The position numbers and the translations under genes are program-made. From positions 19,783 to 83,782 of IMG/VR virus record IMGVR_UViG_3300042514_000757: a stretch of DNA of 64,000 bases. The stretch is one strand, 5' to 3'. Source of the DNA: a virus. Under the pieces are notes generated by a model that searched no databases, was not told the DNA's origin, and was given only the letters and a program-made list of their open reading frames with translations. Positions 17,484 through 22,814 of the stretch are shown piece after piece; positions within the stretch are counted from its first letter, which is position 1, and every line of letters starts with the position of its first letter.

Positions 17484-20400
17484 TCAAAAACCGTTGGTAA
17501 TTGGATTTTGCGATCTAATTACCTGTGGTGATTCATAAATTATAGTTTGATTACTACCAATATTTAGTGGTATGGGAGCAACCAATACCGATGGTGAATC
17601 TTCAATAGTCTTAGTGATTTGACTAGATTGTGAAGATTGTGATAGTTGTGCTCCAGAAACATTTGGTTTACTCGGAGAGATTTTTGGTGCTGGTGGCAGA
17701 ACTGCTGGTGCTGGTGGTTTTTCAGTTTGTACTGGTTTTAATCCCAATGCAGAATTGAGTTTATCAAATACATCAACCAGATTCACCAATGCCTTCAATG
17801 GATCTTCTTCAACTTCCTGCGATGCTGATGGTGAACTAGTAGAATCCGTACTAGGAGTCATACTCGATGCATTCAACTTCTCAAAGTGCCATGGTTCAAA
17901 CCCACCTTTAGCCCAATCAGGTAGTCCCCATCCATATGCAGAACCTTTATTATTGATCCAGTTTTGTGATTTTGCAGCACCAATATCAAGAGCAAGTCCC
18001 CAACCATGCTTAGATGTTCCAGGTTTTGCTGCCATACCTCTAGGTTTGGTATTAAACATATAGACCTGACCATCATAATCACGATAAGATCCAGTGATAT
18101 CTGAAACTAGATCCACACCATCTTTTTTAGCAGCACCAACCATTGATTTGAATGATTGTGCTACCTCACCCTTCCTTAATTTATGACCTCTCCCAACATC
18201 TTCTAAAGCAGAACTTGGTAGTTTCCCATTCTCATACTTACCACCAGTTGCAAATTTAACCATTCCACCAATTGCTTCACCTTTCAATCTAGAAAGTTCA
18301 CTTTTATCCTTTGGTGGTTTAGTTCCCTGCACAATCTGATTTACATTCCTACCTACTCCAGGAGGAGGTACAGTACCCCCCTGTGCTTTTTTCACATTAC
18401 TCTGCTTAACCTTAGATAGAGCATCTCTAATCGTACTAGGCTTCATGCTGCTGCTCTGACCCTTATACTTAAATCTACCATAAGCATCAGGCAAGGAAGC
18501 AAACTCATATGCCAACCCATCCATGAATGCTTCATCACTCATCTGACCACTTAACCACCTTGATCCTCCACGGTTCTGCTCAATATTAACCTTAGATACA
18601 ATTAGATCTTGATTTGCTGGACTGTACATATCTTTATCTGGATTCAATCCTGCTGCTTTTGCTCTACTTACGAGGTACTCAGGAAGTTGTTGGTACTTAC
18701 CTACAGCACCAGTTGCTCTTCTAGCAACCTCAGCGATAGTCATCTTTGTAGCACCATTGAGAGTGGTACTTGGATACATCGCCTCATAATTACCCCCAGA
18801 TTCCTTTCCAGCAATAAGATCAAGAAGGGCAGCCCAATCACCAGTAGCACCTCCAGAAACTCCTCCAGAAGGAGCGCCACCTGCTGAAGCACCTCCTCCA
18901 CCACCTGCAGAAAAATCTTTAGTCGTAAGCAGCGCAAAAACACCCAAGACGTTTGCAAGAGCACCTCTTAGATTGTCCATAGTATTATTTGTTTTACCAA
19001 CATTAAACGTTGGGTTTCTCTCACCAATATACTTGAGTTCTACGTCTTCAGACTCTTTAAGTTTATTCTGTAAGTTAGTCTTCGACTTAACTACGGACTT
19101 ACTCAAACTATCTCCACCAGCGGCAGCAGAAACATTTCCCAACCCGAAAAGTTGCTTTGCTTTATTAATATCTCCCGATAGTAATTGCTTTGCAATTTCA
19201 CCAGAAGAACCCATTCTCTCAAATGATGAGTTAACTGATGAAACAAGTGTTGCAGCAATATTACCAGACATTGCTGTTGATAATTTTGCAAGAGGAATAA
19301 CTGCCTCTGGTCCTTTCTCACCAATCAATGCCTGAGTTGGTTTTGTTACTAATCCACCTTCAGCGAGTGCTGGTGGAGCGATCCAATCATAAAGTTTAGA
19401 TGACAACCAATCTCCAATGATACCACCAACGATACCACCCGCTGCTGTACCTGCAACAGGTAGGATTGCGGATCCAACTGCAGCACCAATACCTGCACCA
19501 ATACCAGATCCAATAGCAATTACAGCAGATCTAGCAATAGGTTCCTTGAAGATTAAAGTCCTAACAGCGAAGTCAATCAGAGGACCGATAATAGGAATTC
19601 TTCTGAAAATCTTTCCTACTGCTTTACCCAAAAACTTCCCACTGGATCTAGAGGCCGCTTTACCTGCAGCACCACCTGCTGATGGTTTACCCGATGTTGG
19701 TTTTGTTTTACCTGATGTTGGTTTTGTTTTACCTGATGTATCTACATCCGCACCGCCATCGGATTTAAGTAAGTCTAGGGTATTAAGAACATCTCCCAAT
19801 AAGGAAAATGGATTTAGCAGATACCCTAGAGCCTTAAACCCAGCAATACCAATCAGAATCTGCCCAAGACCACCGAGAACTTGCTTGAATCTATCGAACC
19901 CCTGCTTGTCCCCAGTTCCAAATACAGATGATACCCCAGTGAGGAAATTATCTATTGACTTATATGCAACATTATAGATGAATCCGAAGATCTTTGCTGC
20001 ACTATTAACAAAACTCTGAATGTTCTTACCATTCTTAGGATCAGCAATCCACTTCAATATCCCTTGAGTTATAAGTGCTCTAGCAGCAAATGTAACAATG
20101 GATTCAAATGGTTTGAAGAATTCTTCCAACCATCCTAAATTTTTTGATACTTCTTTCTTCCCTTCCTTTTCAACATTCGTAGATACGCTTGATTTTTTAC
20201 CAAGACTTTCCTGCTTATCTTCCGATTGTTGATCTTTTCTATATTGCTCTTTTCTCTTGGCAAATTGACCACTGCTCACCAGATACTGATTATCAGTCTG
20301 AATGATAGTGAGTATTTGCTTTTGTACTTTACCTAAAGATTCTACTGAAGCCCCAATTCTATTCACAGATAAAAGAACACTACGGGCAGACTTAATACTG

Positions 20401-20519
20401 GACATAGATCCTCCAGTAATCTGCTTTCCACCCGCAATGATTGCAGCACCCTGACGAGATCCAGAAGTAATCAAACTAGGATTTACAAACTTATATGGTT
20501 TGATAGTACTTGAAAACAT
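17484..20519 (-). CDS. Tape-measure-like tail protein 1 with lysozyme-like and M15 peptidase domains
   Basis: 1011 aa, ATG overlapping the gp51-frame stop (TAATG). Coiled coil at residues 75-120, hydrophobic helices at 140-240 (RALITQGILKWIADPKN) and 305-380, then 'GGLVTKPTQALIGEKGPE' at 389-406, the same tape-measure motif as in its paralogue. Residues 560-705 resemble a lysozyme/transglycosylase (AGKESGGNYEAM with Glu573; 'GAVGKYQQLPEYL'). Residues 780-882 are an M15/VanY-type carboxypeptidase: 'SKHGWGLALDI' (SxHxxGxAxD) and 'PWHFE'. So one protein joins a glycan-cleaving and a peptide-cleaving domain. GKTKPTS is repeated at about residues 263-277. Confidence 0.85.
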   Translation of the reverse strand: MFSSTIKPYKFVNPSLITSGSRQGAAIIAGGKQITGGSMSSIKSARSVLLSVNRIGASVESLGKVQKQILTIIQTDNQYLVSSGQFAKRKEQYRKDQQSEDKQESLGKKSSVSTNVEKEGKKEVSKNLGWLEEFFKPFESIVTFAARALITQGILKWIADPKNGKNIQSFVNSAAKIFGFIYNVAYKSIDNFLTGVSSVFGTGDKQGFDRFKQVLGGLGQILIGIAGFKALGYLLNPFSLLGDVLNTLDLLKSDGGADVDTSGKTKPTSGKTKPTSGKPSAGGAAGKAASRSSGKFLGKAVGKIFRRIPIIGPLIDFAVRTLIFKEPIARSAVIAIGSGIGAGIGAAVGSAILPVAGTAAGGIVGGIIGDWLSSKLYDWIAPPALAEGGLVTKPTQALIGEKGPEAVIPLAKLSTAMSGNIAATLVSSVNSSFERMGSSGEIAKQLLSGDINKAKQLFGLGNVSAAAGGDSLSKSVVKSKTNLQNKLKESEDVELKYIGERNPTFNVGKTNNTMDNLRGALANVLGVFALLTTKDFSAGGGGGASAGGAPSGGVSGGATGDWAALLDLIAGKESGGNYEAMYPSTTLNGATKMTIAEVARRATGAVGKYQQLPEYLVSRAKAAGLNPDKDMYSPANQDLIVSKVNIEQNRGGSRWLSGQMSDEAFMDGLAYEFASLPDAYGRFKYKGQSSSMKPSTIRDALSKVKQSNVKKAQGGTVPPPGVGRNVNQIVQGTKPPKDKSELSRLKGEAIGGMVKFATGGKYENGKLPSSALEDVGRGHKLRKGEVAQSFKSMVGAAKKDGVDLVSDITGSYRDYDGQVYMFNTKPRGMAAKPGTSKHGWGLALDIGAAKSQNWINNKGSAYGWGLPDWAKGGFEPWHFEKLNASSMTPSTDSTSSPSASQEVEEDPLKALVNLVDVFDKLNSALGLKPVQTEKPPAPAVLPPAPKISPSKPNVSGAQLSQSSQSSQITKTIEDSPSVLVAPIPLNIGSNQTIIYESPQVIRSQNPITNGF

Positions 20520-20725
20520 TATAGACTCGACCTACCTTGTGATTGCTGTTGTTGTTTCTTATATTTCTCCTCTTCTTCCTTAAGATGACTGAGAAGTTTA
20601 TCAACATAAAATTGTTTCTCCCAAGGTACCATGTTCTCTAGATCCGAGTAAGACCACTTATGATAGTGAATTAATGCAAAATTAGTTTCCAAGTGGTTCT
20701 CTAAACTAGAGTGTAATAGGGCTAT
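20519..20725 (-). CDS. 51: gp51-like tail/baseplate assembly protein, no standard start; likely -1 frameshift extension of gp26
   Basis: The frame runs 69 codons from an ATA overlapping the gp26 stop to TAA 20519. It encodes 'NFALIHYHKWSYSDLENM', 'PWEKQFYVDKLLSHL' and a Lys/Glu/Gln-rich tail, matching the style of gp51/T-domain tail chaperones. Upstream the frame is open only to a TGA inside gp26 and holds no ATG, GTG or TTG there; the first internal candidates are TTG at codon 12 and ATG at codon 32. The gp26 frame ends over a T TTT TTC slippery heptamer in exactly the register that a -1 slip would join to this frame, giving a fusion of about 305 aa. The stop overlaps the ATG of the tape-measure gene. 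Confidence 0.75.
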   Translation of the reverse strand: MALLHSSLENHLETNFALIHYHKWSYSDLENMVPWEKQFYVDKLLSHLKEEEEKYKKQQQQSQGRSSL

Positions 20726-21435
20726 TCGAAAAAACTTCCAAGTCCTTCCAGTTTGACAGTGCTTGTAACACCTGTTTTGGGATTCTCAACTTCAATTTCA
20801 TGCTCTAATTTTGGCATAGTAGCAAAGAAATCCTGCAACTTCTGGAACTGATCGCTCTTCATACTTTCCAAGAACTCCATTAGTTCTTTCTTAGTATAAG
20901 TCTTGGCATCAGAAACATCATCACCTTCATAGATCTGACTCATACAAGTAATAGAAAGATCGAAAATATTATCAACTGTGATTTCATCTCCACTAAAATT
21001 CAATTTCACAAAAGTATCAAGTGAAGGATACTTCATGATAATTCCAATGTTATCAGTGAGTTCAATCTTATTGCTATGCTTTTCTGGGAACTTTACATGA
21101 ACAGATTCAAGATCAATTTCTACCTGCACTTGAGTTTCTTCATCATCTGGGCATGTGACCATGACTTTAGAAACTTCACCAATAGACTTAGAACGAATTC
21201 TAAGGAATACATATTCAATATCGAATGTGGATAGTTCTTCAACTCTAGATTTTAGATTGGTACAATTTTTGATAATGGTTTTAACTGCACTAATCATATC
21301 CTTCTCTTCACCCAATTGCATAGCAGTTAGAAGAAGTTTTTCTTCCTTCACAAGGAATGGACGATACTTAACAATTTCTTTTGACGATGGCAATTCCAAT
21401 TCATATTCAGGAACCACTAATTTAGGTAAAGGCAT
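20722..21435 (-). CDS. 26: gp26-like baseplate hub/tail assembly protein
   Basis: 237 aa, ATG at 21435 with AAGGAG upstream. 'LPSSKEIVKYRPFLVKEEKL' and 'LLTAMQLGEEKDM' near the N-terminus are characteristic of the T4 gp26 family (T4_baseplate). In T4, gp26 and gp51 are neighbours and act in hub assembly; here they lie directly before the tape-measure-like genes. The protein ends GLGSFFE* across a slippery heptamer, so a minor gp26-gp51 fusion is likely. Confidence 0.88.
   Translation of the reverse strand: MPLPKLVVPEYELELPSSKEIVKYRPFLVKEEKLLLTAMQLGEEKDMISAVKTIIKNCTNLKSRVEELSTFDIEYVFLRIRSKSIGEVSKVMVTCPDDEETQVQVEIDLESVHVKFPEKHSNKIELTDNIGIIMKYPSLDTFVKLNFSGDEITVDNIFDLSITCMSQIYEGDDVSDAKTYTKKELMEFLESMKSDQFQKLQDFFATMPKLEHEIEVENPKTGVTSTVKLEGLGSFFE
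20728..20734 (-). promoter_or_regulatory. Candidate -1 ribosomal frameshift site T TTT TTC
   Basis: Minus-strand heptamer T TTT TTC in the gp26 frame (AGT TTT TTC GAA TAG), two codons before the stop. It matches the canonical X XXY YYZ rule. Slippage by -1 reads TTT TTT CGA ATA GCC, entering the gp51 frame. Confidence 0.75.
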
Positions 21436-21479: not shown

Positions 21480-22325
21480 TTAAATAGTGAGATTTCTTCC
21501 ACTAGTATCTGTAAGAATTGTTTGTGTAAGTCCCTGTGGTCCTGGTCCTGCAGCAGTACTTGCTTGTTGAGCAGCAGCAGATGCAGCAACTCCTCTAGTT
21601 CCTAAAGATACTGCAACTTCTTCAATACCATCATTAGATGGTACATAGAATCTATACCTCTCAAAATAAAATGACACTTCCATCGTTGCATAATTTGCAG
21701 GTCCAGATTGGAGTTGCATATTGCTGATATTGAATGGAAAAGCATTCTTCATTGTCCACACACCTACACATTTATTCCACTTAGTTGTAGTGAAATTTCT
21801 TTGTGATGGATTTACCAATGACATTTCAGCATTTTGATCGTATGGATTTGATCCACCTCTTTCATACTTAAAGATGTCAATGTATGATGTGCAGATGTCA
21901 TCATACCAAGATACTCTCTGACTTGCATCATTTGCAGAGTAATTCATCCACCTCTCAAAGAAGGTTCTTGTTTTATATGTACGTGGAATAATAAATTGAA
22001 TACTAATTTCACTAAAAGTTGTAGAGGTTGGATATCTCCACATAGTACCGACACTTTTTATCTCACCAGTTGTCAGTTGCCTGCTGGGAACTGTAACATC
22101 TGTGGCATAGTAGGTAAGTAATCTAGACTTATCAGTTCCAGGTCCAGAAGTATTTCCATCGTTGAAAAAATCATTAAACCAACTACTACTATTCATCACC
22201 TTAGGTTTAGTCCTAAAACGAACCCAATATAAGTTGTTGTACGATGGTGCTTCCCTTCTAGCAAGGCTTAAGAAACCTTGAAAACTGTTTGCACCAGATA
22301 AACCTGTAACAGCTACATCTGCCAT
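21480..22325 (-). CDS. 54: Baseplate tail tube initiator gp54-like
   Basis: 281 aa, ATG at 22325. Tail-tube-like protein: 'NSFQGFLSLARREAPSYNNL', 'TYYATDVTVPSRQL', 'FSEISIQFIIPRTYKTRTFF', 'FPFNISNMQL', and 'MEVSFYFERYRFY' near the end, the pattern of gp54/gp19 family members. T4 gp54 starts tube polymerisation on the gp48 cap; gp48 is encoded divergently next door. A CATAAATA late promoter lies upstream. Confidence 0.85.
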   Translation of the reverse strand: MADVAVTGLSGANSFQGFLSLARREAPSYNNLYWVRFRTKPKVMNSSSWFNDFFNDGNTSGPGTDKSRLLTYYATDVTVPSRQLTTGEIKSVGTMWRYPTSTTFSEISIQFIIPRTYKTRTFFERWMNYSANDASQRVSWYDDICTSYIDIFKYERGGSNPYDQNAEMSLVNPSQRNFTTTKWNKCVGVWTMKNAFPFNISNMQLQSGPANYATMEVSFYFERYRFYVPSNDGIEEVAVSLGTRGVAASAAAQQASTAAGPGPQGLTQTILTDTSGRNLTI

Positions 22326-22341: not shown

Positions 22342-22359
22342 GTTTTATGCTTTTATTAT

Positions 22360-22367
22360 TATTTATG
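22360..22367 (-). promoter_or_regulatory. Late promoter variant CATAAATA for gp54
   Basis: Minus-strand CATAAATA about 35 bases upstream of gp54. It overlaps the gp4 start codon on the other strand. Confidence 0.55.
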
Positions 22368-22814
22368 CCGTATAACAAGAACATCCTAAAGGGTGTGTAT
22401 ACGCCAAAAAATCCATCAAAATATAAAGGAGATCCGAATAATATAATTTTTCGTTCTTCGTGGGAACTTAAGTTTATGAAATATTGTGACCATAACAATG
22501 TCGTTTTGGAATGGGGCAGTGAAGAATTATTCATTCCATACATATCACCTGTTGATAATAAGACTCATAGATACTTCCCAGATTTTTACATCAAAGTTAA
22601 AGATCGTTCAGGAAAGATTAGTAAATATCTAGTTGAAGTGAAACCACAATATCAGGTGAATGGTCCAGTCCCACAAAAAAGAATGACAAAGAAATATTTG
22701 AATGAAGTGATGACCTACGCAGTCAACCAAGCAAAATGGAAAGCTGCAGAAGAATTTTGTAATGATCACATGTGGAAATTCATTATACTAACGGAAAACG
22801 AATTAAAGGTCTAA
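22365..22814 (+). CDS. 4: Head completion protein gp4 (nuclease-like)
   Basis: 149 aa. I start at MPYNKNILKGVYTP (22365) because upstream in-frame codons lie on top of the promoter start region. 'SWELKFMKYCDHN', 'VLEWGSEELFIPY', 'HRYFPDFYI' and 'YLVEVKPQ' form the endonuclease-like core (D...ExK) of the T4 gp4/gp50 family, which completes heads before tail joining. No clear ribosome binding site is visible. First gene of the plus-strand trio. Confidence 0.88.
   Translation: MPYNKNILKGVYTPKNPSKYKGDPNNIIFRSSWELKFMKYCDHNNVVLEWGSEELFIPYISPVDNKTHRYFPDFYIKVKDRSGKISKYLVEVKPQYQVNGPVPQKRMTKKYLNEVMTYAVNQAKWKAAEEFCNDHMWKFIILTENELKV

Follow-up and report, generated by a model that had tools for sequence, protein, structure and literature searches.

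In phage lambda, the region between the major tail protein and the tape measure protein encodes a short product, gpG, and a minor -1 frameshift fusion, gpGT (PMC5009743). The short gpG coats the tape measure protein and gpGT recruits the tube protein, and T4 was still listed as the exception in this 2016 review (PMC5009743). The tail assembly chaperones (TACs) of T4-like phages have reportedly been identified since (Vladimirov, Gautam and Davidson, 2022; Virology 566:9-15, doi 10.1016/j.virol.2021.11.003). Two later articles attribute to that study the finding of poly-T slippery sites within T4-like TAC-N genes (PMC12846349) and the presence of a short gene plus a separate fused gene in some T4-like phages (PMC10885494). 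The proposal that gp26 and gp51 are a G/GT-type pair is supported by our analysis, yet already published for T4-like phages.

We analyzed a locus of this kind in a 64-kb stretch of viral DNA (the window), which is part of a viral contig of 83.8 kb. Its closest annotated relative, judged by gp26, is the Synechococcus phage S-CREM1 (93% amino acid identity). The gene order on the minus strand is tail tube, gp26, -1 frame and tape-measure-like ORF, with the following features.

21480 to 22325, minus strand: gp19-like ORF for the tail tube, immediately preceding gp26 (phrog_45, tail tube, E=3e-40)
20722 to 21435, minus strand: gp26-like ORF of 237 aa, the proposed short TAC (TAC-N, gpG equivalent; Pfam T4_baseplate PF12322, E=1e-69)
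20743 to 20748, minus strand: Shine-Dalgarno (SD)-like GAAGGA, coding for Glu-Gly, some 8 nt before the heptamer
20728 to 20734, minus strand: slippery heptamer T TTT TTC (X XXY YYZ), identified by its phase in the sequence and by conservation
20519 to 20734, minus strand: gp51-like -1 frame (proposed TAC-C, gpT equivalent), 71 codons from the slip (phrog_634, E=1e-22, and a coding signature)
20620 to 20721, minus strand: candidate long hairpin that begins 6 nt past the heptamer, with weak support in the clade of the window
17484 to 20519, minus strand: tape-measure-like ORF of 1011 aa that includes an M15/VanY domain and matches several PHROG tape-measure profiles (best E=6e-13)

We consider it highly probable, from sequence and analogy, that this locus encodes a lambda G/GT-type tail assembly chaperone made by -1 frameshifting. 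The heptamer, the frames, their conservation, the gene order and the homology of the predicted fusion to T4 gp51 can all be read from the sequence itself. The gp26-like ORF also matched phrog_150 (E=1e-78) in a profile search, and its AlphaFold2 (AF2) model had a pLDDT of 87. The phrog_634 family matched by the -1 frame is labelled 'baseplate hub assembly catalyst'. At the window locus we found no separate full-length gp51 gene with its own start, as in the T4 arrangement; the -1 frame corresponds to the C-terminal part only.

The 3' end of gp26 in the window reads GGA AGT TTT TTC GAA TAG. The original prediction placed an in-phase T TTT TTC at this end, and we confirmed it at 20734-20728. The predicted passage of a -1 slip straight into a gp51-like frame was likewise borne out, as this frame is open down to the TAA at 20521-20519. 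The last A of that stop codon is the A of the next ATG (20519-20517), so that the expected overlap with the tape-measure start is present as TAATG with one shared A. Further, the frame indeed contains no ATG, GTG or TTG before codon 12: its first TTG lies 32 nt past the gp26 stop and is the 12th codon counted from ATA.

The surroundings of the junction had some features of their own. There are two tape-measure-like ORFs in tandem, each of about 1000 aa, at 20519-17484 and 17409-14437 on the minus strand. Either may be the actual tape measure. Their N-terminal regions are related (28% identity over 215 aa, E=1e-13) and both ORFs have a GG[LI]VT[KR]PTQA motif, whereas their peptidase domains differ (M15/VanY and M23, respectively). 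The best PHROG profiles for the two ORFs bear an endolysin label. A gp4-like ORF for head completion, on the plus strand at 22347-22814, contains a TnsA-like endonuclease domain (Pfam E=1e-24) and matches phrog_218, head closure.

TTTTTTC occurs 13 times in the 64-kb window, against 27 copies expected from dinucleotide shuffles; such a shortage would be consistent with avoidance of slippery sites elsewhere. Since the heptamer is not rare within the window, the case rests on its conservation. In all 80 IMG/VR relatives collected in a first round (gp26 49-60% identical), TTTTTTC was located exactly 10 nt before the gp26 stop. In a non-redundant set of 73 relatives (<90% identical), the first slip codon was TTT in every sequence and the second was TTC in 72, with a single TTT. 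The base before these codons was T in 73/73, although the residue encoded there was Ser, Ala, Gly, Asn, Asp or Thr. Of the 53 codon columns that were conserved (n=73), only the two slip Phe codons had a synonymous entropy near zero, whereas TTT and TTC were used 582:243 over the whole gp26 gene in these relatives. Because the slip codons and the preceding T are almost invariant, selection acts on the X XXY YYZ nucleotides beyond the Phe-Phe they encode. Thus, the first frame carries a conserved in-phase heptamer close to its end across the relatives, as expected of a lambda-type system, and the relation between gp26 and the -1 frame is real and far beyond chance. A sequencing error or a decayed gene was ruled out, because relatives show the identical junction.

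The -1 frame had the properties of coding DNA. Over 150 nt in the 73 sequences it contained no stop codon, as compared with means of 4.3 and 5.5 per sequence in the 0 and +1 frames. Variation at the three codon positions of its codons 5-24 was 0.82, 0.54 and 1.27 bits, which is the pattern of coding DNA, and the conserved FFR[ILV]xLxH begins at the heptamer itself. Further, the second frame of a lambda-type system is predicted to be coding without a conserved start of its own, and the 73 relatives agree with this. These signatures indicate that translation of the -1 frame begins at the slip.

T TTT TTN is retained across Kyanoviridae and also occurs in Straboviridae and rhizobial phages. TTTTTTC is present in P-SSM2, P-HM2, KVP40 and another vibriophage, Aeromonas AS-zj, Stenotrophomonas DLP6 and YB07. 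Other phages differ in the last base, with TTTTTTT in Ochrobactrum OC, Melnitz-3 and two further loci (L093, L094), TTTTTTG in Rhizobium Y68 and TTTTTTA in Rhizobium I1_18. The exceptions are a distant Ackermannviridae-like set and the T4-type phages, in which the long form is a gene of its own. At the gp26 junctions inspected in Ackermannviridae and Vibrio K452 there was no such heptamer; these phages keep a -1 ORF after ATTTTCATTTAA or with TAATG, and it is homologous in Kuttervirus and relatives. At the Ackermannviridae loci (L101-L118, L139 and L140), a gp51-like -1 ORF follows gp26, with TAATG in some and ATT at that place in others. Because TTTTTTC is missing there and some loci have ATT, another slip or a rare start would be needed. 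DNA scans with distant gp26 queries yielded few loci, and the distant lineages therefore rest mostly on single phages.

The nucleotides around the heptamer contain candidate stimulators of slippage. Upstream SD-like elements are known to stimulate -1 frameshifting in bacteria (PMC4066793). In most relatives the SD-like element is GAGGG in place of GAAGGA, and anti-SD pairing exceeded that of synonymous recodings (z about -7 for 9-mers whose last base lies 5-10 nt before the heptamer). The Glu codon at -8 was GAG or GAA at a ratio of 51:19, as compared with 523:1181 gene-wide. Over the 50-60 nt past the heptamer, folding was stabler than in shuffles (mean z about -2.0; -0.5 to 0 in control windows), and a stem with dG <= -8 and its 5' arm 3-13 nt downstream was present in 47% of relatives and in 5% of codon shuffles. 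Shared ancestry is not accounted for in these nulls, and the codon shuffle alters the encoded protein; the figures therefore support a stimulatory role and fall short of proof. RNAalifold on the 73 relatives found no common downstream RNA structure; the stems are clade-specific. The long hairpin of the window is also present in S-CREM1, with two compensatory pairs, and is broken in S-H38, which leaves it no more than suggestive. The SD-like element, together with a downstream stem in many relatives, probably raises slippage.

We propose that most ribosomes would stop at the gp26 TAG and release the 237-aa short form, while a minority would slip by -1 on T TTT TTC and read TTT TTT CGA ATA GCC onward. 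The product would be a fusion of about 305 aa, in which gp26 up to GSFF continues as RIALLH and ends in a C-terminal helical domain. The window phage very likely produces this fusion, as judged from the sequence. The SD-like element, and in many relatives the stem, would increase the share of slipping ribosomes. On the lambda model, the short form would be abundant and the fusion minor; many short copies would coat the tape measure protein, whose gene follows directly, and a few fusion copies would bring in tail tube subunits. We infer the slippage, the product ratio, the chaperone role and the binding to the tape measure.

An independent gp51 could instead arise by termination and reinitiation near the gp26 stop, without a frameshift, from ATG in many relatives and from ATA, TTG or another weak start in the window. 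In 59 of the 73 relatives a start codon is found no more than 20 nt from the gp26 stop, most commonly ATG at +5, and KVP40 and another vibriophage have TAATG; a separate gp51 could therefore also be made in these 59. Thus, when the junctions were aligned, the heptamer was conserved as the original prediction expected, whereas the expected absence of a gp51 start did not hold generally. The pairing of a normal ATG with loss of the heptamer, which would have spoken for an independent gene, was not what these phages presented: outside the Ackermannviridae-like set and the T4-type phages, T TTT TTN was kept even with an ATG nearby. Further, the first start codons are scattered (-1, +2, +5, +8, +14 and +20) and are often one among several hydrophobic residues at that place. 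Fourteen of the 73 sequences, including the window, have no ATG, GTG or TTG before +32 nt, yet they retain R (14/14), H (13/14) and L (14/14), all encoded upstream of that point. With an ATG at +5, the heptamer and the stop codon sit where an SD would usually be, and the spacing of the SD-like element fits the heptamer. Reinitiation also leaves the frozen TTT TTC codons and the in-frame fusion of T4 unexplained, and we regard it as very improbable as an account of the locus. The homopolymer run might suggest that RNA polymerase, not the ribosome, changes the frame by slipping on T6. Bacterial transcriptional slippage usually requires longer runs, however, and here the run is fixed at six T followed by C in 72/73, shows no lengthening and holds the X XXY YYZ phase, while the SD-like element and the downstream stems point to ribosomes; we give this explanation hardly any credence.

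The fusion may be made and serve as a baseplate hub assembly factor, the usual annotation of T4 gp26 and gp51, and not as a tape measure chaperone, since T4 gp26 and gp51 have been termed hub assembly chaperones and gp51 is needed for assembly and absent from the particle (PMC3004832). The two-product design and the gene order match lambda G/GT, however, and the two roles are not exclusive. T4 gp29 serves as tape measure and as hub protein, and a defect in a tape-measure chaperone would therefore also look like failed hub assembly. We consider a role in the hub in place of chaperoning the tape measure unlikely.

The predicted fusion has a single-gene counterpart in T4. A profile of the predicted fusion matched T4 gp51 unbroken over the junction (model positions 147-282, whole-protein E=3e-9 at Z=200; the best shuffle gave 0.26) and matched T4 gp26 only over the part that makes up the short form. 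Further, Pfam T4_baseplate spans all of T4 gp26 and residues 1-201 of T4 gp51, and phrog_634 covers T4 gp51 147-246. In AlphaFold2 models, window gp26 and T4-type gp51 have much the same order of elements, with three added C-terminal helices in gp51. The unbroken match and the domain coverage therefore indicate that in T4 each of the two forms has a gene to itself. The window's short form is homologous to T4 gp26 and the whole fusion to T4 gp51, which upholds the view of gp26/gp51 as a G/GT-type pair. The abstract of the 2022 study reportedly says that frameshifting is conserved in several T4-like groups and that T4 uses genes 26 and 51. Whether the frameshift is ancestral in the T4-like superfamily, with a three-part signal (the SD-like element, a frozen T TTT TTN heptamer and a rapidly replaced downstream stem) from which the T4 branch escaped by gene duplication and in-frame fusion, and whether the cyanophage signal is perhaps undescribed, seems to us evenly balanced.

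Cyanophage and marine vibriophage gp51 has been described as being without its first ~200 aa, and Aeh1 as being without gp51 (Sullivan et al., 2010; PMC3037559). These residues appear to be lacking because gp26 supplies them by frameshift. In Aeh1 the absence may be due to a missing start codon, by analogy with AS-zj. Public annotations list no gp51 in ACG-2014d, S-CAM8 and Aeromonas AS-zj, and place it about 90 nt late, and short, in S-H38 and P-HM2. Such omissions and late starts arise because no early start codon suits the annotator. The 'truncated' cyanophage gp51 would then be the C-terminal part of a frameshift product, which accounts for both the mis-starts and the missing annotation, and the correction would mend the annotation of one of the commonest marine virus gene sets. 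The locus would also offer a simple reporter system for recoding in cyanobacteria.

Sequence searches of the PDB with the gp26 profile returned nothing relevant. In a Foldseek search with gp26, the HK97 TAC (2ob9) had the highest probability among the matches listed (0.57; TM by target 0.55) at a weak E=1.7, and a fold search with T4-type gp51 did not recover the HK97 TAC; the likeness of the modelled gp26 to 2ob9 is suggestive. The TAC of phage Adele (Vandenendeviridae / Andersonviridae) depends on -1 frameshifting at a conserved GTTTTT motif that precedes the tape measure (PMC12846349); it comes from other phage families, and its likeness to the window is one of motif and position. In T4, gp26 and gp51 are two genes on opposite strands that need no frameshift. 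The SD-like element and the stems are modest candidate additions to the published T4-like scheme. The original prediction saw in this locus the lambda gpG/gpGT arrangement, and the heptamer, the coding -1 frame, the gene position and the single-gene fusion of T4 all speak in its favor. The slippery site of lambda is G GGA AAG, unlike the T TTT TTC of the window, and the likeness lies in the arrangement: as in lambda, a short product and a minor -1 fusion are proposed between tube and tape measure, and the order tube, gp26, -1 frame, tape measure parallels lambda V-G-T-H.
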